From: Antitrichia curtipendula
Taxonomy: Eukaryota > Streptophyta > Bryopsida > Hypnales > Leucodontaceae
Reading direction: 5' to 3'
Assembly: GCA_951230915.1 (NCBI GenBank)
Contig: OX579637.1
Coordinates: forward strand, 8,680,001 to 8,744,000
DNA length: 64,000 nucleotides
Below are positions 3,916 to 64,000 of the stretch, one piece after another. The translations under genes and the position numbers were made by a program. The notes beneath the pieces were generated by a model. That model was not told the DNA's origin and made no database searches. It saw nothing but the letters and a program-made list of their open reading frames with translations. Within the stretch, counting starts at the first letter, position 1; each line of letters starts with the position of its first letter.

Positions 3916-5400
3916 CTAATATGAGTGGCGGAAGTGTTCATCCGGAATAGGCCAGTTGCAATTATTGGTAAATCGATGGATGATTTTGGACAAGCTACCG
4001 CGAAAATCAATCACCGAATCACAAAGGCACTCCAAGTAAAGGTGAAAAATCTTTGCCAAATCCTCATGGCTAAATCTTGTATGTCCTTCATTTTCCCGAT
4101 GTAAGCTCACGTAGTCCGCCGACATGCAACCATTGTTGATGGCTTGAGCTATTCGACCAACCGCATATTCCTCCGATTTACGTGATAAAATCGGTATCGT
4201 TGACACATCCGCATCTCTTCTATGCAAGTATGCAATAGAAGGGTCCACCCACCACCTCTTTTTCAAGGTCTCAGTCCGCTCACTCTGAGAGGTGACCGTG
4301 TACAAGGACTTCATTGGTTCATTACGTAAAGTAGTCATGCCCCAATTGCAAACTCCAGTGTAAACACGTGACTCATCATTGGGAAAGTGAAACATAATGT
4401 TGTCCAGTGAAAGATCATTGTGCAAATGTCCAGCGCTGTGCACTGCATTCATGAGGTGCACCAATGCCCATGCAAGCTCTGTGCGCTTCTTCCTCCAACG
4501 ACCAAGTAAAAAAGCTTTGGTCACCTCTTCCGGGGTCGGTTGAGAATAAGCCAACCGAATGCCAATGTTATCGGGATATTCTTTATCTAATTTTAACATT
4601 TGCCTCAATGTTCCGCCATTCCACCAATACGAGTACCGTTCGTTCTGCATTGTATGAACAGCAGAAAACCGGATAACTCCATCATGTGGAATTCTCATTG
4701 CCATTGACTCGTTTTGGTGTTCCAACCTTGCAAGCTGAGGTCGTAAGCGTTGTTGATGAGATACCTTCGCTGCGAACTCCCAAAATGTGGGTATCTCACG
4801 ACATCCTTCAATTCGGACCCTCCGAATTGTTGCATATCCACCCCTCAGGATTTGATCATCTTGTGGAATCACCCTTGCTGTTTCCAGAAGCGCTAAGAGA
4901 TGTCATCGCCCACGTTGCAACTCCACAAGTCCCTCATCACTATTCTACCAACTCATTGAACCTTGCCTATTTCGATTCTTTGCAAAAGGGGCGCACTAGC
5001 AAACAAACAAGTCTGCCCTCAAAATAACCTGTTCAAAAGCGCCATCACCTACGCGGTGTTGCTTCATGTACTTCTCTAAGATCACCTTTGCATTCCACAA
5101 TGCCTCATGGACCTTGTTCTTGAAAAATTGTTGAAAGCCCTTCCTCTCCATTTCATGAATCCAGTAGGGTACGTTTAAAGCATCCATGAACTTTTGTGCC
5201 ATATCTCCCTTGAATTTATCTGGGCACTCGTCTTCATACCTTGCATATTTGGTATACAACGACGCAGTGGTTTCCGACTCATAAAATTTGACAATGCACT
5301 CAATGAGAAATGCTTTGCAAGCGAGAGAGGGAGCGTCCATACTCGCCTCACTGTCCGGCTTCACTCGTTTGTCCTTCGCAGCCTTCTTTGGTCTCGGCAT
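3916..5400 (-). pseudogene. Protein-kinase-like gene with three in-frame stops
   Basis: One minus-strand frame runs from an ATG at 5398-5400 (MPRPKKAAKDK, basic start) to a stop at 3916. Stops at 4996-4998 (TAG), 4945-4947 (TAG) and 4903-4905 (TGA) interrupt it, all explicable by single C-to-T or G-to-A changes. The N-terminal ~130 residues form an unassigned helical region. The kinase-like part, numbered from 4872, has a Gly-rich turn (GGYAT, residues 11-15), a candidate ATP-binding Lys in FAAKV (36), a catalytic-loop-like HNDLSLDN (151-158), and CNWG (175-178) where kinases carry DFG. The Asp of DFG is therefore Asn, so even the intact protein might be a pseudokinase. An intron hiding some of the stops cannot be excluded. 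A CCGTCCG array lies directly upstream. Confidence 0.6.
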
Positions 5401-16823: not shown

Positions 16824-17747
16824 ACATTAGCCTCGAGTCAAAGCTAATGTAGGTCTAGCCTTGAACCATTACCCTGTATCCTGGAGTCCAGGGTATGGTG
16901 AGGTTGTACAGTGTAGTCGCTGAAATATATAGTGTGCTAGATTTACCTTCGGCACGAAGGTAATAAATGATGTTGTGAATTCGCTGTATATTGGAGTCAC
17001 CGTATCCTTGAATAATAATCATAACACTAGAGATCAGGATCCTTGATATTCAGTTTATGTTCCTCTGCTAATTTCACTTTGACTCGAAGCTAATTTGCAG
17101 ACTGCTCTAGTATTTCTTTAGACATGGACGCCTTGGATAGTTATCGGCATGGTAATGTTTTGGTTTAGTAATTTTTTGTTTAACCATTTATGACATGGTA
17201 ATTTACCTTCGTCTCGAGGGTAAGTATTGTGTGTTAATGATTATGAATGACCTCCACTACGATGTTGATATGTGGTTCGGTGGAATATATTCTCTTGATA
17301 TTCTTGTGTCCTTCAGCAGTAATGGTGAATTTACCTTCGATACGAAGGTAAGTCGGTGATGGCTTATTACTATAGTACTGTTTAAGCCTTCGGATTCTAG
17401 ATGAAGTTTGTGAATCCTGATGTGTGGGCTAGAGGTGGTCGTATTTATTGATGCGGTGGCCGTGGTGGATGAGAGGATTGATTAGTGAAACTCGACTAAA
17501 TTATGGCTGTGTAGGAGCCTTGTCGGTGTCCATTAATATTTCGTAGTGTAGTCATTGTTTGCCTCAGAATGAAAACTGATGTGATTGCTGTCTTATTATG
17601 TTCGGTGTGTCCACCACTATTTCTTGAAGTGTTGCAAATTTTGTCTATGGAGATGTTGTTGTCGCCCTTGGTACCTCAACTGTGAATAAGTACATTTTCG
17701 TGGTTGTCCGTTCCTGTCGTTATCAGGTACCTTCGTGTCGAAGGTAA
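16824..17747. repeat. Six copies of a 21-bp palindrome, TTACCTTCG-NNN-CGAAGGTAA type
   Basis: Sites: 16824-16850 (variant with TTAGCCTCG and longer arms), 16943-16963, 17073-17093 (degenerate, nearest to the first site), 17203-17223, 17331-17351 and 17727-17747. Central triplets are agt, gca, act, tct, ata and tgt. Each site has 8-9 bp inverted arms meeting at a CG-NNN-CG core. Spacing is about 110-130 bp for the first five, and all lie upstream of the coding frame. In three sites the right arm runs into GGTAAG or GGTAAT, which resembles a splice donor. The same design with different arms occurs at 55-64 kb. Confidence 0.85.
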
Positions 17748-17811
17748 TTACCATGAAATCGTCATTATACCTTGGCTTCCAATGACTTGTGTTTGTTTTT
17801 GTAATGGTAGG

Positions 17812-20679
17812 ATGGACATCCATGGTCTCGACAATTTTGCTACCCCTATTCCAATTTTGGCTCCGAATGTTGCTGACTGTGATGGCATCCCTCGTTTGTC
17901 CTGGAACACAAAAGCTGTTACTTTGCGTAACGAAGCTGGAGATGACGTCACGAAAGGAATCTGTTGTAGCGTTGATGCCGATCTTGTCATCGATAGTGAC
18001 GAGAAGCCCCTTGGTGACAATCGAGTCGCTGTTCAAATTGCAGAATCTTTATGTGAGATGGAGGTTCCATCAGGTTGGATGCGGTCAATGCATTCTTGGC
18101 ACATTGCGCGAGTATTTCTAAACGGTGTTAGCCTCTATGATCATCAACAGACAGATTTGTACAGCACTGCTGTGAATGCTTCCAACCGTCGTGCACGTGT
18201 GGGAGTGCGCTCTTATGAGAGTTCTCGAGAGAAGAGGGAGCTTGATCTCCCTCCTAAAAAAGAAACCCTTCTCACCACCCAATCAATTATTGGAGTGTCC
18301 ACTGTATCTTGTTGCTATAAGAACTGCTTGCAGCATTTCCCTTGTAGTGAAATTCAGGCGATTTGTTCTGAATTGCATGTAACTAGTGGAGTGTATGTCC
18401 GCAAGCGCTGCCTTCTTGAAGCGCATAGACAGAAGCACAAAGACCAGGCAGGGAAGGAATGGATAACATTGAAGAGTATTGATGTTTGCCTTCCTGTCTG
18501 GTGGACTATCCATGGGAAATCAAAAGCAACCTTCGACAAGTTCAAGCACATGGCCAATGATGGGAAAGTAGCTGAGTCGCACGGGAATTTGGGGTCTAAG
18601 AAGCCACGCACACAGACTGTGCAAGCCACCGCCACACTTCGGGCTTTGGTTGTAGGGCAAGCAGACAAAATGCCGCACAAAACGAGAACATTAGCTTCAG
18701 GAGAGAAAGTACCCGCAATGGTTTTGTCCTCTACGTTTCAGTGGAGTGATCAACTACCAAAAATCAATGAAGCCAATGCCAAGTTTGATTTGCCGCCGAT
18801 TTCTTCCAGTGGATTGAGTGGCATTCAACGTGCTTCTTTTCCTGAATATTCTGCAAAGGCTCGTGGGGACACTTTTGCAAGGTGTGGTCTATGCGATACT
18901 TACAAGCAGTTGAAGAATGCTTGCACTCCATTGTCTACAGCACAGGGCAAGTAGTACAGAATTTTGAACACCCATCTTTGTGGACAAGAGGCCCATAGAG
19001 TATTGTACTATTCAAATCGATATGTGTCGGAGGAGTTCCCTGAGAAAATGTTGTGCATCATCCACAATAAAATGGATCACTCGAAAACTGATTCTCCGCA
19101 CTTCTCTCACAAGACCAAAGCAGCAGATTTCTACATGAAATTGCCAGTTGCTGTCACCGGCATGATTGCTCATGGTCATGGCGACATTTGATATGCGCAC
19201 TATGGGCTGGAGATTTTTCCTACGGACTCAAACCATACTGTTGGGTCTATTGCAAGGTTGTTGCGTGATCTTGAAGGAGTTCCGAAGAATTCATCCCGCA
19301 TTCTGTTTTCTACGGAGGACAACCAATCCCCTTTAACCCAGGCGGTATTGGAAGGTTCAAATATATGTTTGGACTCCCTTCTTCCTCCTCCACAAGAACC
19401 AATCGCTCATTGTCCTTTACCGCCTATATTGACTTTACAGCTAGACAATGCATCCGGGGACAACAAGAACCGATGGGTTTTTGCTTTTTGTTCTTTACTT
19501 GTGTTCAAAGGCATTTTTCGTGAGATATACATCAATTTCCTCATTGTTGGGCATACTCATGAAGATATGGACGCTCTCTTTGGTCGATGGAGCACGATGT
19601 TGAAGATGAAAGACTACAAAACACTTCCTAGGCTTATGAAATCCTTCATGGATTGTGAAAGTCATCCCGTCATTCCTCACTTCATCGAGGAAGTTCCTGA
19701 TTTTAAGCTATTTGTGCAGGGATACTTGGGTACAGGTGGAGACTTCTTGGAAGGTCATTCTACGTCCCAACAGTTCAAATTTTACATGGATTCAAGTGGA
19801 TGGCCTTTGATGGAGTACAAGAATTTGTGTACGGACAAGGACTAGTTGCCAGAGCACGGTAGAGGGATTCGGTTGTGGTCTGAGACAGAAGACGGTCGTC
19901 CCAAAGTGCCAAGCGGAAATCCAACACCTTTGGCTCCACAACAAATGCGGGCAGTAGGTGAAATAAAGAAGGATTTGGATGGTTTTATTTCACACTGGAG
20001 CAGAATGGCGAATATCAAAGAGTCTGGAGAGTTCAAGCTTCTATATGGTCCCATAAAAGAGTATTGGAAGGATGTGAGGGCGGCTTTAGATGAACCTCTA
20101 GTGGTTCGTGAGACTTTGAAAGATGGATTTTGGCCGGCTTCTAGGATCACCGAAGAACCGGAGGACCGAAAGCGAGAAGATGGTATAGTGCATGAAGAAT
20201 TTGCTCAAGATAGACCTTTTGTTGGGCGTTGGCGCGACCGTCCTAGACCTTCGTTTCGTATTGATAAGGATTTGTTTGCGGGATATTTTGTCGTTGTGCA
20301 ACCCGCTGATGATGACCCAAAGCCCTTCTGGCTTGCTAGAGCACTTACGAATCCGGATCCGGGACATATGCATTTGATCCAAATTCAGTACTGGACACCT
20401 ACATCAGGTCGTTTCATTGACTTGGATACGTATGCTGGGTGGGACACAAAAGCAAGGAATGTGTGGCATATAGATCGTATAATTCCTCCTTGTTGGTCAA
20501 ACACGGACTGTATCATGACGGCATTCAAGCCACGTGGAAAGAAAGTGGTTGACGATATTCCTCAAGTGATTTCGAGAGTTACTATTCCGAAGGCACAAAT
20601 GAACATCATCAAATCATCAGTGGCAAACTTTATGCCGAATTGCAATAACGATGACGTCTTGGATGAAGAGGAAGAGTAG
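17812..20679 (+). pseudogene. DUF7869-type transposase-like gene, three C-to-T-type stops
   Basis: One plus-strand frame runs from an ATG at 17812 (just after a plausible acceptor, atggtag) to a stop at 20679, about 955 codons. Stops at 18952-18954 (TAG), 19189-19191 (TGA) and 19843-19845 (TAG) interrupt it with no frameshift. The core matches the DUF7869 family pattern known from eukaryotic transposon-like proteins: KMDHSKT (about 19070), LDNASGDNKNRW (about 19442-19477) and VGHTHEDMDALF (about 19546-19581). These supply candidate D, D and D/E metal-binding residues of an RNase H-fold transposase. Upstream, CCYKNC and FARCGLCDTYK give Cys pairs that may bind zinc. The C-terminal ~150 residues (FWLARALTN, IQIQYWTP, NVWHIDRI) look like a chromatin-reader-type beta domain, which is tentative. 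The tail is acidic. Terminal inverted repeats were not found. Confidence 0.75.
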
Positions 20680-54842: not shown

Positions 54843-55084
54843 TATAACAAACCGATGAGTGATTGTATCCGGATTCCGGAAGAAGACGGATCCGGATCAA
54901 AATCCAGAAAGAAGTAAGTTCCGGAAGAGGGAAAAGAGATTTCGGGTTCCCTTGGGGTGTTTTAGAGATAATCCGAATAAATCCAAATTCATAGCAACAT
55001 AGTAGAATCCCTGGGACGATTTTCCGTGTCATCTAACCACAATTGTGTGTTAAAGGTGCTTACCTCTAGATTACGCGTACGACA

Positions 55085-55411
55085 CGTTGTTTGCTCAATC
55101 GGTACGTCGTAATTGTCGACATTGTCATTCAGCTTGTGCTCACTGTCCGTCGAGATATCTACACTCTTGTTTGCTGCAGGTTGCGACTGCCTGGCCGGTG
55201 TCCAATTGGATTCAGCCGCCCCCTTTCCCTTCTTCTTCGATGATGACGGTGTCCTTGACCGCTGAGGTCTCCTCGGATACATGGCCTCGTCAACAAAATA
55301 GCCGGAAGGTAGGAAGTTGTTCTTGTCCAGAATCTTGGCCGCACTCGCAATTCTTGTCCAGTCATCGGACTCATCCGAGTCCCCCACCGCAAACACTGTG
55401 AGCCTGCTCAT
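55085..55411 (-). pseudogene. Last exon of methyltransferase-like gene copy 1, truncated by the LTR
   Basis: The exon starts at ATG 55409-55411, right after the acceptor tttcttcag. It is homologous to the exon 59797-60759: both begin MS..., then carry a LxSGY...PR segment and a TPSSSKKK/STPSSSKRK motif. The exon is cut at 55084 by the gypsy 3' LTR, so the acidic/Gln-rich part and the stop codon are missing. The intron in front (55412-55565) contains two palindromes. Confidence 0.65.
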
Positions 55412-55453
55412 CTGAAGAAATGACACAAACACAGTCAATTGCATACAATACAA

Positions 55454-55516
55454 TTCAGATCGGGTCGAGCTGAACAACGGTGACAAGTAGTTTACTTCAG
55501 GTCGACTCGACCTGAT
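55454..55516. repeat. Two 21-bp palindromes in an intron, TTCAGGTCG type
   Basis: 55454-55474 reads ttcagatcg-ggt-cgagctgaa and 55496-55516 reads ttcaggtcg-act-cgacctgat. Both have ~9-bp inverted arms with a CG-NNN-CG core. They lie in the 154-bp intron 55412-55565, which has donor gtatgt and acceptor ttcttcag on the minus strand. Confidence 0.8.
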
Positions 55517-55565
55517 TGACAGACCGGATATATTCCGAATGAAGGTAAATGGTTGTTAAACATAC

Positions 55566-56921
55566 CATTGCAGCACATGTGAATTTAGAGCCAGCAAAGA
55601 GTGACAAAATGTTTGCCCCGGGAATATAAAACTTTCTTAAAATACGGATATAGAACTCCATCCGCAGCTCTGTGTTGTTGATTCTGAATTCGAGCTCATT
55701 GTGTAGTCGTGGCTTCGTGTATGTATCTGTATTAGGAGCATCATACAATGCCCTAAGGTCGACATAGTTTTTGTTGCTCGGGCTCTGAAGGAATGTTAGA
55801 TAAATTTTCTCGACTGCCTTCTTGTTGGTGACGGAGTAGTCACCCATCCTCTCTTGACTTGCTGGCATGTAGTCCAAGAATGTCATCTTGTACTCCTTTA
55901 GCACATCATTTGACTTGATGTAGTGGAGAAGCTGCGTGTGCTCAGTGAGATCTAAAGCTATCAAAAGCCAATTTTGGACGTCTTCAAGATACGGTTGACC
56001 TTTCTCCTGAAACAATCTCAATGCAGCTGTGAAGAACGGGTTGGATGGCGTGCACTTCTCCTTGTTCAGGACGATAGGAGTGTACCTCACGTTCCATACA
56101 CCGAACGCCATGTTCTTCAGGTGGTTGGCAGTCATCGCCCCCTTCGGCCAATCCTGGTGCTCTTCTGATTTTATGTCATACGGTCAATAGTGAGCGACAG
56201 ACATTGGCGGGACGAAGTTATTCCTGCGTTTAAGGAGCACCTTGAAGAATTGAGCCACGTACGGTGACATTTCTTCCACGGATTTGTTCTTGGCTCTGGG
56301 CTGCTTGGCTTGGGCCCAATAATTGTCTCCAGGTTCATGCTCGAGAAGAACGTTCATCAAGGCGCTCGTGAAGTTCCAACTTTTGTTGAACTGCCTCCAC
56401 TTCTCTACGTTCAACTTGTCCATAGAGTTCATTAGTTCTAGGGTTGAGTCCACGAGGTGTAGTTCCCTCTTCACAAGATACTTGCGTTTTCGGCGCTCAA
56501 CCTACTCCTTGCATGTGTAGCAGCTTTTGAGCACACCCTTGATGAGTTTTATTGTCACCTTCAGATACTTCTTGTTCTTCCTTCCTAACTCTTGATGTAA
56601 GATGTGCTTGGCCAACTTCGTCAAGTCATACAATGAGAGATTACCAAGCCACTTGAAGTATTCGTGGATCAAGTTCCCCCTCTCTGGCTTCCATGTTGTT
56701 TTTGCGTTGAACTTCATGCAGGTGTCTGGGTCCATGAGCTCCCCATGCGCTGCGCTTGAAATCACTTTGCTCCAAAGGTTGAAAACTTCATCAGGAACGG
56801 TGATACTCTTGAGCTTGTTCACAATCTTGAGCTTTTCTTCTGCGTCCTTGCCTTTTGCTGCTTTCTGAGCCTTCACAACATCAAGCATGGTGAAGCACTT
56901 GTACATTGCCAAGGAGAATTC
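55566..56921 (-). pseudogene. Methyltransferase-like gene copy 1, main exon
   Basis: The exon starts at 56921 after the acceptor ...gtccag and ends at 55566 before a gtatgt donor. One frame has two stops, TAG at 56502-56504 and TGA at 56184-56186. Both fall on Trp codons of the paralogue (KEWVERRKRK and HYWPYEW), so both are TGG mutated by G-to-A. The C-terminal part (RLHNELEFRINNTELRMEFYIRILRKF, then ANILSLFAGSKFTCAAMV) resembles the end of N4/N6-type DNA methyltransferases, where a KPxELx helix precedes the SAM-binding DPFxGSG motif. Here the motif is LFAGSK. A catalytic DPPY-like motif is not evident. The N-terminal two-thirds is unassigned. Homologous to 60953-62309. Confidence 0.55.
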
Positions 56922-56963
56922 CTGGACGAGCGTGATGCATTACAAAGCAGTTAGTATGCATGG

Positions 56964-57047
56964 TTCAGGTCGAGTCGACCATAATTGTTCTCATGCATAA
57001 TGATACAGATAGAGTATGCTCTGCAGTTCAAGTTGAGCTGATCTGAA
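56964..57047. repeat. Two palindromes upstream of the copy 1 main exon
   Basis: 56964-56984 reads ttcaggtcg-agt-cgaccataa and 57027-57047 reads ttcaagttg-agc-tgatctgaa, the latter degenerate. They lie in the presumed intron just 5' of the exon at 56921, the same relative place as the site at 62430-62450 in copy 2. Confidence 0.7.
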
Positions 57048-57661
57048 GTGCATACAACATCATATTCAAAATTTTGGGAGTTTTCCAACGAAATGAGAGT
57101 TTATTCTTAATGCCTTAGAATTTTGCAAAGCAAATAAAAGCAAAAAAGGAGAATTAAACGTCAGCAAACACATAAAAAACATTTGATGACAATGATAAAA
57201 AGCTTCCAAATGAAGAATTCAAAAATGATATGCTCAACTTTGGGCATTGCATCTCTATTACCCAAAAAAATCATATGGTTTACATATATTTTGCTTTGCA
57301 ATGCGTGCAATATATACTCTTCTAGATGATGACATGTGTAGGATTCAGGCAATGGATGCGTGATAAAAGCAATCCCTTGGATCCACCTAAGATAACAGTG
57401 GACTAGAATTCAAATAAGAAGCATGAAAATCATGTAACCAGAATGCACATGTATTATAAACAATTAGCAACTACGTGATGTACTCTTGAGCTTTTCAAAG
57501 GCCATGAAAATTTCAGGCCCTCAACTATACCCCCCTCCCCCTTGACACTTGCACCTGCCTGACGTATGTGTTCTCTTTCTTGCGCTTGTAGTGACCTCCG
57601 CTCCCCAGAGTCCCAAGTACGAGTGGAGGATTGAGTACACAGTGACCTTCCAGCTTTTTTT
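57048..57661. other. Non-coding DNA between the phosphatase-like and methyltransferase-like exons
   Basis: A/T-rich, with a C-rich run (cccccctcccccttg) near 57530. No exon recognised. Confidence 0.5.
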
Positions 57662-58012
57662 TTAACTTCCTGATTCAGTCAATGCACGACATTGTGGAAG
57701 TAAAAGACAAGCAACCACGGGTTCAGGAATTTCCGCACGCAGATCACTTGGCATATGGGATTTCACTTTCGGTGCAAACGTTAAATAATTAGCATCTCCG
57801 TAAAGCTTCTTTTGCGTCCCTTTTTCTGAAATAGTTGGCGACCTTGACAAATCTCGGACTGTCCAAGAGCGCAGAGGAGATGGTGAGCAAGAAATCGGCA
57901 AGCGCAGCTTCTTGTCTGGGGGACTATTTACCACTTCGTCCTCGATCTGCTTGATAGAGAAGTTCATGGTGGAATTAACAATAGGAGCCAAGCAAAATTC
58001 CTTGTACTAAGT
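57662..58012 (-). CDS. Probable 3' exon of the NIF/FCP1-like gene
   Basis: An open frame on minus with a plausible acceptor (acttag) at about 58013 and a stop at 57662. It encodes a Ser/Pro-rich segment (NSPPDKKLRLPIS, SPSPLRSWTVRDLSRS). No domain is recognised. Assignment to the phosphatase-like gene rests on orientation, spacing and the palindrome in the intervening intron (58302-58322). It could instead be part of the downstream gene. Confidence 0.35.
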
Positions 58013-58301
58013 ATCATGTACTGCCCATACTCCAGAATGGAGTCCTCAGACGCTTGACACGGGAGGTTCCCATCCAACCTAGATCTTACAGACGCGTTTT
58101 TCATCTGGCAGGGAAAAATAAGAAAATTAGCCATAGAACTTTGAACAGGTCATAAGTACATAGAGTTCAGTATAAGCTGTAGCCAGAGCAGAGGACCTTG
58201 GACCTCTAAAAACAAAATCGTCCCAAAGTACACGATATCGCAAAGGGCGTTAAAATGCAACAAAGAAATACGTAAAAATAAGTTGTTTTAGGACGCTACA
58301 T

Positions 58302-58322
58302 TTTTGGTCGACTCGAGCTGCA
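58302..58322. repeat. Palindrome in an intron of the NIF/FCP1-like gene
   Basis: ttttggtcg-act-cgagctgca. Core arms GGTCG and CGAGC belong to the TTCAGGTCG/TTTAGCTCG type; the outer bases have decayed. It lies just 3' of the main phosphatase exon. Confidence 0.6.
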
Positions 58323-58339
58323 TACCTCCAAAACTAAGT

Positions 58340-59056
58340 CTAACTAACACTAGCGGACCCATGAAGGACCTCTATAAGATTGTCATACTCTCGGCGACCC
58401 CGTTCTTCGCTCAGCATTCGTCTTCCAATCCTCCATTTTTTATTCTCTCTGAAGGACTTGAGACCATTGCTGCAGTTGACGTGCAACTGTTGGAACCAAG
58501 GAAGCAGGACTGCCAGAAGAAATGTGTCCCTGTCACCATTTCCTCGGTTACCCCAGGAATCCGATAATATTACATTCTCAGACTTGTTCATGATGTGTTT
58601 GTGCGGGCTGTCGTCCACTACGACTGTATTATGAGAAGTGAAGTTCCCATGGAAGCCACCGAAAAGGAAATCTAGGTTCTTAAGGAACAATTCCTTATTT
58701 GTTCCAGGTTCCTTGTAAGTGGTCAACCTCCCGACTCTATCCCTGCACTTGATAGTCTTGCACGAGTCTTGCCCAAGAACGAGGAAGGGCCATTTTCCCT
58801 TCCGAAAGAGGTATCCACAAATTTAATTGGTCGTAGTTTTTTTCATGGAGCTCCATACAGTAATTTTTGTTATCATCTCTAGCTCCTTCAAGAACTGAGC
58901 GCAATTTGGACAAACATATATTGCTTTGGGTCCAACAATTGCAGCGATTGTAGCAGAGTGCGGCTCTGAGGCGTCGCAAAAATGCTTGGTTGAACTGTTG
59001 GACTTCTAGTCCTCGCAGCAGCATAAAATGCCATTGAGGTCTAGGATGACGTTCAT
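58340..59056 (-). pseudogene. FCP1/NIF-type phosphatase-like gene, main exon
   Basis: The frame begins at ATG 59054-59056 with MNVILDLNGILC, the HAD-phosphatase motif I in the DLNG form shared with the copy at 37560-38284. KITVWSSMKK, GYLFRKGKWPFLVLGQDSC and VVVDDSPHK (the acidic motif IV of the fold) follow, then SENVILSDSW and LLAVLLPWF. A TAG just after the first motif and a TAA near 58820 interrupt the frame; both are compatible with C-to-T. FCP1/NIF proteins dephosphorylate Ser/Thr, classically on the RNA polymerase II C-terminal domain. With the second Asp of motif I replaced in both copies, activity is uncertain. The exon end is not certain; donor candidates lie near 58340-58380. Confidence 0.6.
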
Positions 59057-59280
59057 CCACTTTTTTGCCACCCCAGACCTCAATGGTTGATGGACGCCCT
59101 CCGTATTTCCTTTATGGTTTACTGTAGGATCGGACCCCTGCTAACAAATGTACGAATGTGCATCCAGTTACGATCGTGAAACTGGCCTAATTTGTACGTC
59201 ATGCAAAATCATTTCATTGCTGAAGGACAAATGACAATGTAGAATGTCCAGTTGTGCCATTCAAGGACAAGAGATTATAC

Positions 59281-59471
59281 CTTCTCCAGTGCCGAACTTG
59301 AAGGCCGATCAAGAATTTCACAATTGGTTGCCACACAATGAGGCGCTGAAGTATCTTCATCCAATTCAACAAACTCAACTGAACATATCGGATTTTCATC
59401 CTCATTTTCATCCCGATTTTGTGTAGAAGGGAGAATAGAAACCTCATGACAACTTTCCAGATTCATAAGTC
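59281..59471 (-). CDS. Probable 5' exon of the NIF/FCP1-like gene
   Basis: Bounded on the minus strand by acceptor attgcag (before 59471) and donor aag/gtataa (after 59281). It encodes a short acidic segment (DENEDENPICSVEFVELDEDT) without a recognised domain. A palindrome lies upstream at 59664-59684. Confidence 0.4.
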
Positions 59472-59663
59472 CTGCAATTCAAGATTGTGGAGAAGGACTC
59501 ATTGTAAGATATATATTGCATTTTCAATGATAATTGTCCTTTACAATATAGAACTCAATCCACCAGTGTCGAAACTACAACTAACGCCAACAAAAACAAT
59601 GTCCGGATAAAAATCGAGCACTACATCTACAGACAAAGCTAGAGCTCAAACTCTATCAAACAG

Positions 59664-59684
59664 TTTAGCTCGAGTCGAGCTAAA
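59664..59684. repeat. Perfect palindrome TTTAGCTCG-AGT-CGAGCTAAA
   Basis: 9-bp arms without mismatch around agt. The arm is intermediate between the TTCAGGTCG type of copy 1 and the TTTAGCGCG type of copy 2. It lies 5' of the phosphatase-like gene and 3' of copy 2. Confidence 0.8.
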
Positions 59685-59796
59685 CCTACATAACGCAATG
59701 CTCACTAAGTGTTTATTGGGCAAAACCTACAAGTTGATCTTTGGTGGGCAGGGCATCGCTTCCAAGCTCCACCTCGAAAGCCTCTCTGGACAGGTT

Positions 59797-60759
59797 CTAC
59801 CTAATCTCCATCTCCGCAGCTTCCACGTCGGGACGTGGACTCCTCACTGGGTCTTCTTGCTGAGCTTCCGAGGGAGAGGGATCACCAACAAAATCTTCGG
59901 ACGACAGAGGTGCAGGCGACTCGGGTGCGCTACCAAGGATTTCCAGCAAAGGCTGCGACGGACTCGAGGCGTTGCTTATATTAGAGCCGGACGGCTCGCC
60001 CTGCAGTTGCAACATCGGAGTTTGTGGAGGAGGGGGCAGTGCTGCGGTGGGTTTCGGGTCAACCTTTATAATCAGGATTTGAAGCATTTTCTTGTTCTGT
60101 TGGGCTAGCTCGCGGTTGTTTGGGGACTCCGCCCCCATCCACTCCTGATTATTTCTGTGAAGTTCAAGGTTATCAGCCCTCTCCCTTGCGTTGTCCTCCC
60201 TAATCTGCGCCAATGCAAGCTCGTTTTGGCGCTGGTTCAGCTGAGATTGTATTTGCATATTCGCTATAGATAAGGCAGTCTGGGCTGTAATCTCCGCCAG
60301 CTGCTTTGTAATACTCGTGATTGTATCCTTCTTCCTCTTCTTTTGTGGGCGCCCAAATGCAGTAGGAGTCTTCGGTGTTACAGGCAAAGGAGGTAACATG
60401 GAGCTCGCCGATGATCCTGGTATATCTGTAGATGGGCGGCTTGTCAGTGTTGCCATTTCATCGAGTCCTTGAAGCCCGTCGTCTTCAATGTCTTCCTCGT
60501 CCTCATCGGATTTGGAATCTGAGTCTGGTTCTTCGTAGAGCGGAACCTCCATCCGCCGCTCATTGAGTTGGGAAGTCTGGCTCGACCTCAATTTCCTCTT
60601 CGACGATGAGGGCGTTGAACTCGGACCTTCACCAGCCGACCTCGGGTACCCACTCTCAAGGAAGTCAGCTATGTCTAGCACCATCGCCTTCTTACAGATT
60701 CCTTCCCACCAACCCGATTGAGAACCCAGACCAATGGCGTAGATGTTCACGTTACTCAT
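59797..60759 (-). CDS. Last exon of the ParB/methyltransferase-like gene (copy 2)
   Basis: The exon begins with ATG at 60757-60759 after the acceptor ttttttgtag and ends with a stop at 59797, 320 codons uninterrupted. MSNVNIYAIGLG may be the start of a new exon rather than a protein start. It contains a LESGYPRS segment, STPSSSKRK, an acidic run (DSDSKSDEDEEDIEDD), a basic nuclear-signal-like RPQKKRKKD, a Gln/Arg/Glu-rich coiled coil (about residues 150-215) and a Pro/Ser-rich tail. The tail looks regulatory or protein-binding. The preceding intron (60760-60952) holds two palindromes. Confidence 0.6.
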   Translation of the reverse strand: MSNVNIYAIGLGSQSGWWEGICKKAMVLDIADFLESGYPRSAGEGPSSTPSSSKRKLRSSQTSQLNERRMEVPLYEEPDSDSKSDEDEEDIEDDGLQGLDEMATLTSRPSTDIPGSSASSMLPPLPVTPKTPTAFGRPQKKRKKDTITSITKQLAEITAQTALSIANMQIQSQLNQRQNELALAQIREDNARERADNLELHRNNQEWMGAESPNNRELAQQNKKMLQILIIKVDPKPTAALPPPPQTPMLQLQGEPSGSNISNASSPSQPLLEILGSAPESPAPLSSEDFVGDPSPSEAQQEDPVRSPRPDVEAAEMEIR

Positions 60760-60811
60760 CTACAAAAAAGAAATAATATTGTTAACGCAATCAACAGAAG
60801 ATGCAGAACAT

Positions 60812-60933
60812 TTTAGCGCAGCCCGCGCTAAAACGAAAACTCATTTGAATGCATAGGAACAGGAACAATGATAACGAACATACACTAGAAACACTTCATA
60901 CAGGCAACTCAGCTTAGCGCGACCCGCGCTAAA
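60812..60933. repeat. Two palindromes in the 193-bp intron, TTTAGCGCG type
   Basis: 60812-60832 reads tttagcgca-gcc-cgcgctaaa and 60913-60933 reads cttagcgcg-acc-cgcgctaaa. The intron is the homologue of 55412-55565, which carries two TTCAGGTCG-type sites. Confidence 0.85.
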
Positions 60934-60952
60934 GTGCAATCATATTGCATAC

Positions 60953-62309
60953 CACGGCCGTGCACGTCAGCTTGCCCCCCGTGTAACCGGAAAAACCCGA
61001 CATGCCAGACTTGCAGAATGCCTTCACGAGCCACAAGTAGGATTCCATTCTCAATTCCGTGTTGTGAATCCGATACTCCAGCTCACTGTACGCGCGTGTT
61101 TTCACGTACCGTGCCGTACCGTACCGTTTCCGGACACTCAAACTCGGAAGGGATTTCCACCTTGTTCTTGTTCTGTGGATTCTGCAGGAAGATAAGGAAC
61201 ACCTTCTTCGGCGTCCTCGCTGCTGGTACATTTCCCAGTCAGTCATTCTTTCCAGCAGAGTACACGGAATATGAAATCAAGAAGGATTTGAGAACCCTGT
61301 TCGATTCGACATACTTCAGGGCTTGAGCTTGCTCCTTCTCGTCACCACAAATGAAGAGCCACAACGGAACATCCCCAAGTGCAGGTTTCTTTGTGTTGTC
61401 CATGGACGTGAGCACTTCAATGAAGTACGGGTTCTCCACGGTAGAGGTGGCCTTCTTCTCAATCCCCGGCAAGGACCTGAAGTCAATCACCCTGAGCGCA
61501 AGATGTTTATCGATCTCTGGAGTCCACACCTTCTTTGGCCATTCCATGTGACGATTTTCGACCCACTCATAGGGCCAATAGTGGCCATTTGCTGTCGGTT
61601 TCTTAAAGTTTTCCTTGTGTTCAAGAAACACCTTGAAGAAATCATAGGCGTCTTGGGACAGCTCGGTGATCACCTTGTTCCTTGCCGATTTGTTCTTCGC
61701 TCTCCCAATGTAGGCTTCACTGGGCCTATCGAGCAGCACGTCCATGGTGGCGCTGGAGAAAAGCCGTTCCTTCTTAAAGGCCTTCCAGTTCTCACTGATG
61801 ATCTCGTTTTGAGCGTTCATGAGCCCAAGTTGAGGCTTGATGCCATGGAGCTCCTTGATCACGAGATTCTTCCGCTTACGACGTTCAACCCACTCCTTTG
61901 TGCTGAAACAATCATCGAGAACTGACGTGACACTCTTGATTGTGAACTTCGGGTATGAATGAGTGCGTTTCCCACCCGATTGGTTGAGCAGATGTTTTGC
62001 AAGTTTCGATATTTCATCGTAGCTCAAATTACCCAAGTGCTTGAAGAATTCATGATTCAACATGCAACTTTCAGGATTCCAATCCTCCTTAGCGTTAAAT
62101 ATCATATCCGTGTCAGGATTGAAGAGCTCTCCATGCGCGGTTGCGGTGATCACCTCACTCCACAGCTTGTACACATCATCGGGTGCCGTGATGAGCCGTA
62201 ATTCGTTCGTCAGCTTCAGCTTCTCTTCTTTGTATTTTGTTTTGGAGATCTTCAGATTCTTGATAACATCAATCATGGAGAATCTCATATACATTGCCCT
62301 CTCGAATAC
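60953..62309 (-). pseudogene. Methyltransferase-like exon of copy 2, frameshifted near its 3' end
   Basis: The exon starts at 62309 after the acceptor tgatag (VFERAMYMRFSMIDV) and ends at 60953 before a gtatgc donor. It is open for 350 codons to 61239, then needs three frame changes between about 61250 and 61100. One falls in a run of 5-bp cggta repeats (about 61108-61130). The paralogue at 55566-56921 shares HGEL..PDT...FNAK, NLS.....KLAKH.L, VERRKRK and HYWPYEW, plus the C-terminal EYRIHNTELRME followed by FSGYTGGKLTCTAVV. This last motif resembles the SAM-binding FxGxG of DNA methyltransferases, with Lys at the last position. The N-terminal part is unassigned. With the upstream exon the order is ParB-like then methyltransferase-like, an arrangement known from prokaryotic and phage modification proteins. 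Confidence 0.55.
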
Positions 62310-62429
62310 CTATCACATATTTTGGTAAATGGCGTTAGAATCGACAGCAAAGGTTCATGTAATTCAATCGCAATACATGAAGCAAGAAATTGACCGAGGA
62401 ATGAACTGATCCGTGTCTCAGGGATGCAG

Positions 62430-62450
62430 TTTAGCGCGCCTCGCGCTAAA
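62430..62450. repeat. Perfect palindrome TTTAGCGCG-CCT-CGCGCTAAA
   Basis: 9-bp arms without mismatch in the intron between the ParB-like exon and the methyltransferase-like exon. Confidence 0.88.
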
Positions 62451-62521
62451 GTGCTTACTTGGAAGCTCTACTTTTTCTGCCTGTTCTCTACTGTCCTTCT
62501 CGTGGACGCGAGAGTACCTAA

Positions 62522-63911
62522 TTACTTTGTTGGCGTCGGGTTTTCGGGCTTGCCCATATCCTCCCAGACATTCCGAGCTCCCAAAATATTGGTCGCCCAA
62601 GATGGTTGAACAGCCACAAAATGGTTTGTGCAATTGTAATATGCGGAAATGCTTCGCAGCTTCTCAGCATCTTCTAACCACACGATGAAGCAATTCCATT
62701 TCCGAAAGTGCTCCCTCTCATCCTTGTCCACGTTGTTTTCGTCATCGAACATGTACTTGCTAGCTTCAACACTCTGCTGCCCGTTGATGATGTAGAATTC
62801 CCCGGCCTCGATTTCCTCCCACCTTGTGGGCTTCTTCTTCAGACCAACGGGCATGATACAGAATGTTTGTTTGGTGCTCTTGTCAGGAATATTTAAGAGC
62901 ATATTGACCATGTCTTCAGCAATGATGTTTTGCTTGGACCGGATGTTATATGTTGGCGGCGCCTCTATGAGCTGTGAGATGTCAATCTCTTTCTTCTCAC
63001 CAACACCAAAGACATATGCGTCTTCACAAGTGGTCCAGAACTTCTTGTACACCTGACTTATATGCTCATAGTCAGGTTTCTTCTCTATCGCCCGCGAGTG
63101 TGGCACATTTTCCATCTCATTCGCGTAACTCCCTTTTGCGACCTCTGAAGTCTCAGACTCCTTTGCATAAGGTGTCTTCTTAGACAGTGCTGCAACTTTC
63201 TTCCCCTTCCGCGTGTCGGTCTTCAGAGTTGGTGTCTGCGTGCTTCTGTGACCTCGACTTGCACCCGACTCCTGCTTGACTTTGAGCTTGGAGGTCATAC
63301 TGAGGCCTTGGTTCAAAATCTCCTTTGATATTGATCGAGCTCTGTTATTCTCCTTCTGCATCTCAAGCTTCCCCTTCAGTGTGTGTAAGTCGTTGAATAG
63401 CATACGGATTTTGCTGCATAGTTTTTTCCATGTCAGGGGGGTCCCATTTGCGTTCTGCCACTTGTTGTTGTCTAGTTTCTTCTCCAGCTCCTTGATCTCA
63501 CCGCGGTATGGAGTAGGTTCTAGACTCGAGAGGAATGAGCTCAATTGGAAAGGCACAAGAACAGAGTTGATACAGATTGCGAAGTGATAATTATTCTGCC
63601 TACTCTCACCGAGAATCATTGTCATGCATTTGACTTTGATCATTGGGTGCGTGTTTGCCTCTACATCCTTGATCTTCTCGTGAAAAGAGAGTTGCAAGAA
63701 GCACTGAGCGTTCTTAAATTTATACGAGATGCAGAATTGGTTTATGAATGGGATCATGAATAATCTCCAGGCCTCAACTCTTTCCGGCTCCTTGAATTCC
63801 CAATATTCTCCTTCATTGAGATGGTCGTCTACACTTTTGTCGTCGTCGTGGAACTGCACTTCACATCTCTTGAAGTATATTTCCAGTGCCTCGATTTGAT
63901 TATCCATCCTC
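62522..63911 (-). CDS. ParB/sulfiredoxin-like exon of copy 2
   Basis: A 461-codon frame from ATG 63905-63907; a likely acceptor (gatag) just upstream suggests this is an internal exon starting at about 63911. Residues 1-230 are helical and unassigned, followed by a Lys/Ser-rich linker. Residues about 310-395 resemble the ParB nuclease/sulfiredoxin-like fold: IRSKQNIIAEDMVNMLLN (helix), TFCIMPVG (strand), then GEFYIINGQQSVEASKYM, the place of the GxHRxxAA-type motif. NCFIVWLEDAEKLRSISAYYN and PSWATNILGARNVW follow. The stop at 62522-62524 (PTPTK then TAA) is probably a 1-base deletion: one base on, the frame continues with VIRYSRVHEKDSREQAEK to a strong gtaagc donor near 62456. ParB-like domains bind DNA or act as nucleases. 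Confidence 0.5.
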
Positions 63912-63974
63912 CTATCAAAACAAGGTAGAAAATGAGGTTAGTCGACAGCGGACAATGTTTTTCGCCAGTTGCGT

Positions 63975-63995
63975 TTTAGCGCGGCGAGCGCTAAA
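63975..63995. repeat. Palindrome 5' of the ParB-like exon, TTTAGCGCG type
   Basis: tttagcgcg-gcg-agcgctaaa, one mismatch between arms. It lies in the presumed intron upstream of the ParB-like exon, at the window edge; more exons and sites may lie beyond. Confidence 0.8.
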
Positions 63996-64000
63996 TTGTA

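Follow-up and report, generated by a model that had tools for sequence, protein, structure and literature searches.

Repeated palindromes in non-coding regions of a moss DNA transposon: candidate family-specific recognition sites for an element-encoded protein

A 64,000-nucleotide stretch of the genome of the moss Antitrichia curtipendula (contig OX579637.1, positions 8,680,001 to 8,744,000; hereafter the window) ends within a DNA transposon with terminal inverted repeats (TIRs), whose non-coding DNA carries many copies of one short palindrome. The element lies on the minus strand, is 19,491 bp long, and extends from 57056 to 76546 in window-equivalent coordinates, meaning that the window numbering is carried past the right edge. 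Positions 57056–64000 fall inside the window and the other 12.5 kb lie past it. The TIR is AACATCATATTCAAAATTTTG, and the element is flanked by the target duplication ATAC, which reads GTAT on the opposite strand. Gene T, encoding a DUF7869 protein, is divergent from gene A, whose product has ParB-like and methyltransferase folds, and gene A is followed by gene B, encoding a HAD/NIF phosphatase.

The intron borders of gene A were read from the sequence and its homologs rather than from RNA. Exon 1 (open frame 62522–63937, minus strand) encodes a ParB-N/Srx-like domain, preceded on its N-terminal side by a domain with weak PH/FERM-F3-like matches. Exon 2 (61239–62309, minus strand, to an in-frame stop) encodes a helical domain and the start of an N6/N4 amino-methyltransferase fold. 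Exon 3 (open frame 59797–60759, minus strand), assigned by its order and by comparison with two related loci described below (L001 and L002), encodes a long low-complexity, charged region. Structure prediction backs both the ParB N-terminal domain and the beta-class N6/N4 methyltransferase fold, and the search by sequence for solved relatives gave none that was convincing. The window copy of gene A looks decayed, judging from the in-frame stop at 61239–61241, where a paralog continues, and from a frame shift approximately 110–155 bp further on. Gene B (58340–59111, minus strand) consists of two overlapping open frames for a NIF/FCP1-like HAD phosphatase, with the Pfam NIF match in the first. 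DUF7869 is the sole Pfam family above cut-off in the T proteins scanned, and one relative (P0181) carries the name 'transposase' from its source; T is presumed to be the transposase of the element.

An earlier note on the window had described four copies of a 21-bp palindrome at gene A, and all four exist at the places it gave, with 1, 1, 0 and 1 mismatches, in ascending order of position, to TTTAGCGCG-N3-CGCGCTAAA. Two are in intron 2, at 60812–60832 (TTTAGCGCA-GCC-CGCGCTAAA) and 60913–60933 (CTTAGCGCG-ACC-CGCGCTAAA). A third lies in intron 1 immediately past the donor, at 62430–62450 (TTTAGCGCG-CCT-CGCGCTAAA), and the fourth, at 63975–63995 (TTTAGCGCG-GCG-AGCGCTAAA), is the first unit of an array 5′ of exon 1. 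A fifth site occupies the spacer between genes A and B (59664–59684, TTTAGCTCG-AGT-CGAGCTAAA), with one arm base altered symmetrically on both sides. Palindromes are given here without strand; in the sense context of the minus strand, GT donors stand directly ahead of the sites at 62430 and 60913. The donor-side place in intron 1 is occupied by a site in 18 of the 23 loci examined in this subfamily, in which the conserved unit exceeds 21 bp (extended consensus ACAn-TTTAGCGCG-nnn-CGCGCTAAA-nTG).

The repetition is larger than first noted. Within the 19,491-bp element there are 25 copies of one 9-3-9 palindrome, each matching at 14 or more of the 18 arm bases. The array 5′ of gene A runs on beyond the window to 65155 (window-equivalent 63975–65155) with a spacing of approximately 100 bp. 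The array 5′ of gene T (window-equivalent 71880–72737) has 15 units at 58-bp spacing, 10 of which match the palindrome at 14 or more of 18 positions. A scan of the whole window for 9-3-9 palindromes whose centre is flanked by CG on each side, with at least 7 of 9 pairs, gave 11 places. One is at 1126 and the other 10 belong to two gene-like regions, the second of which, at 16943–17747, is described below. None of 100 dinucleotide shuffles of the window yielded sites of the kind first described. The statement that the sites avoid exons holds for exon 1, as none of 187 sites (at least 8 of 9 pairs) falls in exon 1 in the 30 best gene-A loci of 91 matches (40,893 bp), each of which has at least one site. 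The feature is not limited to introns, however, because its main arrays lie 5′ of genes A and T. Overall, the earlier reading is supported in part.

That the palindromes belong to a TIR transposon is evident from the element's ends. Among 28 other copies with DNA matches past T, the matches of 25 reach a common end point to within 11 bp and those of 3 break off sooner, with 40 scored out of 514 candidates. Twenty of those 25 right ends were retrieved, and all 20 stop at the identical base with dissimilar flanks. Their terminal point is an inverted terminal repeat held in common with window position 57056. On the left side, 18–20 of the 21 TIR positions are present in 6 of 7 ends retrieved, and one left end was not found. 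A 4-bp target duplication, different in each copy, accompanies 7 of the 8 copies whose two ends were examined: ATAC at the window's own element, and ATAA, TTTA, AATT, CTGG, TTAG and TACC elsewhere. A short run of telomere-like CCCTAAA repeats was seen in the spacer of this transposon, beyond the window (L028 2678–2721).

The left flank (54989–57055, minus strand) holds exons 2 and 3 of another, more distant gene-A copy with its own TTCAGGTCG-type palindromes at 55454, 55496 and 56964, and the right flank is similar to exon 1 in more distantly related copies of gene A (11 matches, 86–88%). Because the two flanks thus supply complementary parts of such a gene, we infer that the transposon inserted at the exon 1/intron 1 donor of that copy, beside its decayed palindrome. 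Palindromes as general insertion targets were considered and rejected: this one insertion adjoins a host palindrome, but the 20 other right flanks, compared by eye, look mutually unrelated and show no palindrome array.

Gene linkage across the genome agrees with a multi-gene element. The 400-Mb genome holds at least 91 matches to gene A (90 scored of 858 candidates) and at least 128 to gene T (128 scored of 1505), both counts being lower bounds. A divergent T gene is found 5–16 kb upstream in 43 cases among 87 merged A loci, and a same-strand T gene upstream in none. Random placement yields on average 0.6 upstream T-A pairs and never more than 4. The 16 kb downstream of A loci contain 3 T genes. 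One contig (C5; 37.2 Mb of the 400 Mb) holds 53 of the 87 gene-A loci and 69 of the 128 scored T loci, and is perhaps a sex chromosome or another repeat-rich chromosome. From ends, target duplications and T-A linkage, the palindromes are internal parts of a TIR transposon. To that extent the suggested use by a mobile element is borne out, but the sites are not at the element's ends, the outermost being separated from the left end by approximately 2.6 kb and from the right end by 4 kb.

The same layout recurs in distant relatives. When prokaryote assemblies were scanned, two contigs binned in a cyanobacterial metagenome-assembled genome (MAG) proved to encode an intron-containing gene A of 28–30% identity (L001 and L002). 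Both carry TTCAGCTCG-N3-CGAGCTGAA in introns and flanks, with 8 sites each, one in L002 having an imperfect core. Weaker matches in open frames (L001 2073, L001 4969 and L002 4118; 6 of 9 pairs, unrelated arms) were left out of this count. In the 4.8-Mb MAG, 16 places match the TTCAGCTCG-type palindrome with at most 2 mismatches, 15 of them in L001 and L002 and one in a third contig (L030), and the reversed control pattern matches nowhere. This third contig encodes a 963-residue DUF7869 frame, and its sites are on the 5′ side of its T gene. All three contigs (CADCWO01, AVDCRST_MAG81) are eukaryote-like, intron-containing transposon sequences in a public cyanobacterial MAG, where they are probable contamination; one of the proteins stands in NCBI under a cyanobacterial name (P0073).

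Predicted proteins from other contigs, where they run past an exon end into an intron, also encode the palindrome. Within the last 50 residues of 150 proteins there are 33 matches, in 29 proteins, compared with 24 in the remaining 52,413 residues; one of the three palindrome expressions used matches solely at a protein's end and accounts for 5 of the 33 tail matches. A viral origin was considered and set aside. Two search routes gave no gene-A relative in IMG/VR, exon 1 had no match in a phage collection at E 0.01, and IMG/VR held no exact match to the first palindrome pattern. A looser palindrome appears in 9 contigs, one site each, which we take as chance.

Within the moss genome, the arms of the palindrome differ among subfamilies of the element, with the change present on both sides. 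Loci of the approximately 90% class have TTTAGCGCG, those of the 62% class have TTCAGCGCG, the only 70% locus has both, and the one 44% locus read has TTTAGGTCG. A set of 841 pairs and one of 258 sites were picked by resemblance to the motif, so that arm conservation in them is partly by construction, and the comparison was therefore repeated with selection on the left arm only. Among 90% class array units with an exact left arm (96 units from 21 of 23 loci, giving 191 within-element pairs), the right arm retains an identity of 0.83–0.98 while the centre falls to 0.36–0.54. The spacers average 0.36 downstream (0.20–0.70) and 0.43 upstream (0.25–0.77). The 841 pairs picked by both arms give a similar result. 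In a half-site comparison that took in 23 loci, counted both strands and likewise selected on the left arm only, the right arm is closest to that of its own subfamily in 225 of 258 half-sites of the 90% class and in 37 of 52 of the 62% class; the rest are ties, other arms or no match. The palindromes are thus dispersed, conserved and subfamily-specific, and they lie outside the coding sequence of the TIR transposon.

Some adjacent array spacers do resemble each other, as would be expected if the sites were chance repeats or recent duplications of an insert such as a miniature inverted-repeat transposable element. This explanation is hardly credible given that shuffle and Markov expectations are near zero, that the second arm is kept while spacers have diverged, and that the same layout is found across genes approximately 30% identical. 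The likeness of neighbouring spacers, together with the regular 58-, 100- or 130-bp spacing of arrays 5′ of both genes, would also fit with ordinary promoter or enhancer operators that a host transcription factor reads and that tandem duplication has multiplied. Such operators would not be expected to change their arms with the element subfamily or to recur at a fixed intronic place, and for these reasons we regard a host factor as improbable.

The earlier note had also raised the possibility of RNA hairpins with a 3-nucleotide loop acting in splicing, to which a role in RNA stability may be added. Short introns hold sites near the donor, and some stems are longer than usual (L001 4391). However, most sites lie in upstream arrays and some are intergenic, and past four outer pairs the pairing falls to 0.26 or less, except at two positions (0.42 and 0.47). 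Over the 258 sites, the mismatched pairs on the sense strand comprise 73 G·T, 90 A·C and 70 others. Such a distribution has no excess of G-U, and therefore gives no sign of selection for RNA pairing. The hairpin proposal is thus disfavoured, and we consider it very improbable. At the gathering threshold, no known RNA family was found in the window.

A stronger competitor is binding by the presumed transposase T itself, either to assemble a transposition complex or to autoregulate T. TnpA sites in En/Spm are transposase-type sites of this kind. A 15-unit array with arms almost identical to those at gene A precedes gene T itself, and 5′ sites are found also at the L030 T gene of another organism and at a second T gene in the window. 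The latter, a DUF7869 gene of a separate element (17686–20679, plus strand, interrupted frames), is preceded by a different 9-3-9 array, TTACCTTCG-N3-CGAAGGTAA (16943–17747), with units at 16943, 17203, 17331 and 17727 and a spacing of approximately 130 bp; the wider array region has been given as 16826–17747. Sites bound by T in transposition should be subterminal, and a role as terminal transposase sites was rejected since the palindromes are kilobases away from the element ends. In addition, they are present in the introns of A and in the A-B spacer. We regard T as a rather unlikely binder overall.

Instead, we consider it probable, by sequence and by analogy, that the element encodes a dimeric protein, most likely the gene-A product, for which the palindromes serve as family-specific DNA recognition sites, much as motifs in VANDAL transposons do for VANC proteins. 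The dimer would bind the two 9-bp half-sites, which are approximately one helical turn apart, and the dispersed sites would let the protein mark or cover its own element. The effect might be to keep the element expressed against silencing, as VANC does, or to regulate it. The ParB-like fold makes the gene-A product the first candidate, and of the functions proposed earlier, binding by this ParB-like/methyltransferase-like protein is the leading one.

Several observations weigh against this assignment. The canonical CTP-binding (cytidine triphosphate-binding) motif of ParB is GERR. In an alignment inspected by eye, the corresponding position reads INGQHSVAASK (GQHS) in most relatives, and exon 1 of the window copy has INGQQSVEASK. 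A helix-turn-helix (HTH) was not identified in gene A; exon 2 starts with a helical region, and no HTH was among the matches listed, which were filled by other domains. N6/N4 amino-methyltransferases have the catalytic motif (D/N/S)PP(Y/F/W). No DPPY-type motif is evident by eye in a 32-sequence alignment, in which IDFRxxP follows the corresponding strand. The pairing of arms is likewise not perfect: an exact partner is missing for 9 TTCAGCGCG half-sites inside the 90% class, and in locus L061 of the 44 class every right arm departs from the exact complement, with 5 of 7 reaching 8 of 9. The T array differs from the A array, its inner pair being often mismatched (TTTAGCGCT-AGT-CGCGCTAAA), and its 7 exact left arms all lack an exact right arm. 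Finally, the second T gene of the window has its TTACCTTCG array, yet no gene A was seen nearby with 90 of 858 gene-A candidates scored. The T protein therefore stays a candidate binder, because T genes carry arrays too.

A bolder version of recognition by the gene-A product is that a eukaryotic transposon took over a ParB-type DNA clamp and an inactive methyltransferase fold while spreading parS-like palindromes. The clamp would load, slide and shield the element from silencing, and in each subfamily its specificity would have been rewritten through matched changes in protein and palindrome. We hold this version to be doubtful.

Two further features lie elsewhere in the window. A perfect inverted repeat at 906–962 has arms of at least 25 bp and a 7-nucleotide loop, and an open frame at 3916–4902 (minus strand) has a weak protein-kinase match (E 0.009) below the Pfam cut-off.

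Neither this element nor such a role for a ParB-like protein is described among the results listed for the open-licence literature searched, and the system shares parts with several known ones. In phage and bacterial ParB-methyltransferase proteins, an N6/N4 methyltransferase fold comes after a ParB-like domain, as in gene A. In contrast to those proteins, gene A is eukaryotic and contains introns, its catalytic motif is not evident, and its exon 1 lacks a match in the phage collection. KorB, a ParB relative, loads at palindromes and slides as a clamp (PMC11790492), and like ParB-parS and KorB-OB, gene A combines a ParB-N fold with palindromic sites near the gene. The KorB OB half-sites given there, TTTTAGC/GCTAAAA (PMC11790492), even resemble TTTAGC/GCTAAA here (for example at 62430). 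This likeness may be coincidence, since several other subfamilies have no TTTAGC half-site. Unlike ParB and KorB, the present system belongs to a eukaryotic transposon with a different half-site spacing, and neither a GERR-type motif nor an HTH was seen in its protein.

Among transposons, the accessible text on Sola elements gives a 4-bp target duplication, variable TIRs, lengths above 15 kb in some cases and occurrence in the moss Physcomitrella (PMC10741241). Membership of Sola is possible by analogy, on the shared 4-bp duplication and the moss occurrence, although that text mentions no ParB-like or HAD genes for Sola.

The closest functional parallel is VANDAL/VANC of Arabidopsis, in which motifs located in introns and in intergenic and terminal non-coding sequence let an element protein counter silencing (PMC5735166). 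There, too, a multi-gene DNA transposon carries a short motif repeated in non-coding DNA, the motifs multiply as tandem repeats, and related families have different motifs (PMC5735166). The moss element likewise has a family-specific motif in its introns, spacers and other non-coding DNA. The two systems differ in the motif itself, YAGTATTAY for VANC21 (PMC5735166) versus a 9-3-9 palindrome here, and in the candidate binder, which here has ParB-like and methyltransferase folds. The T gene is of the DUF7869 rather than the Mutator type, and the target duplication is 4 bp, compared with the 7–12 bp given for the Mutator group (PMC10741241), so that by duplication length and T gene family the element is not a member of VANDAL/Mutator. 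If the proposed recognition is correct, then this element would be a second, independently built case, beside VANC/VANDAL, of transposons labelling themselves by a DNA code of their own, and its several subfamilies, which differ in palindrome and have diverged proteins, would offer a natural series for how such specificity is encoded.
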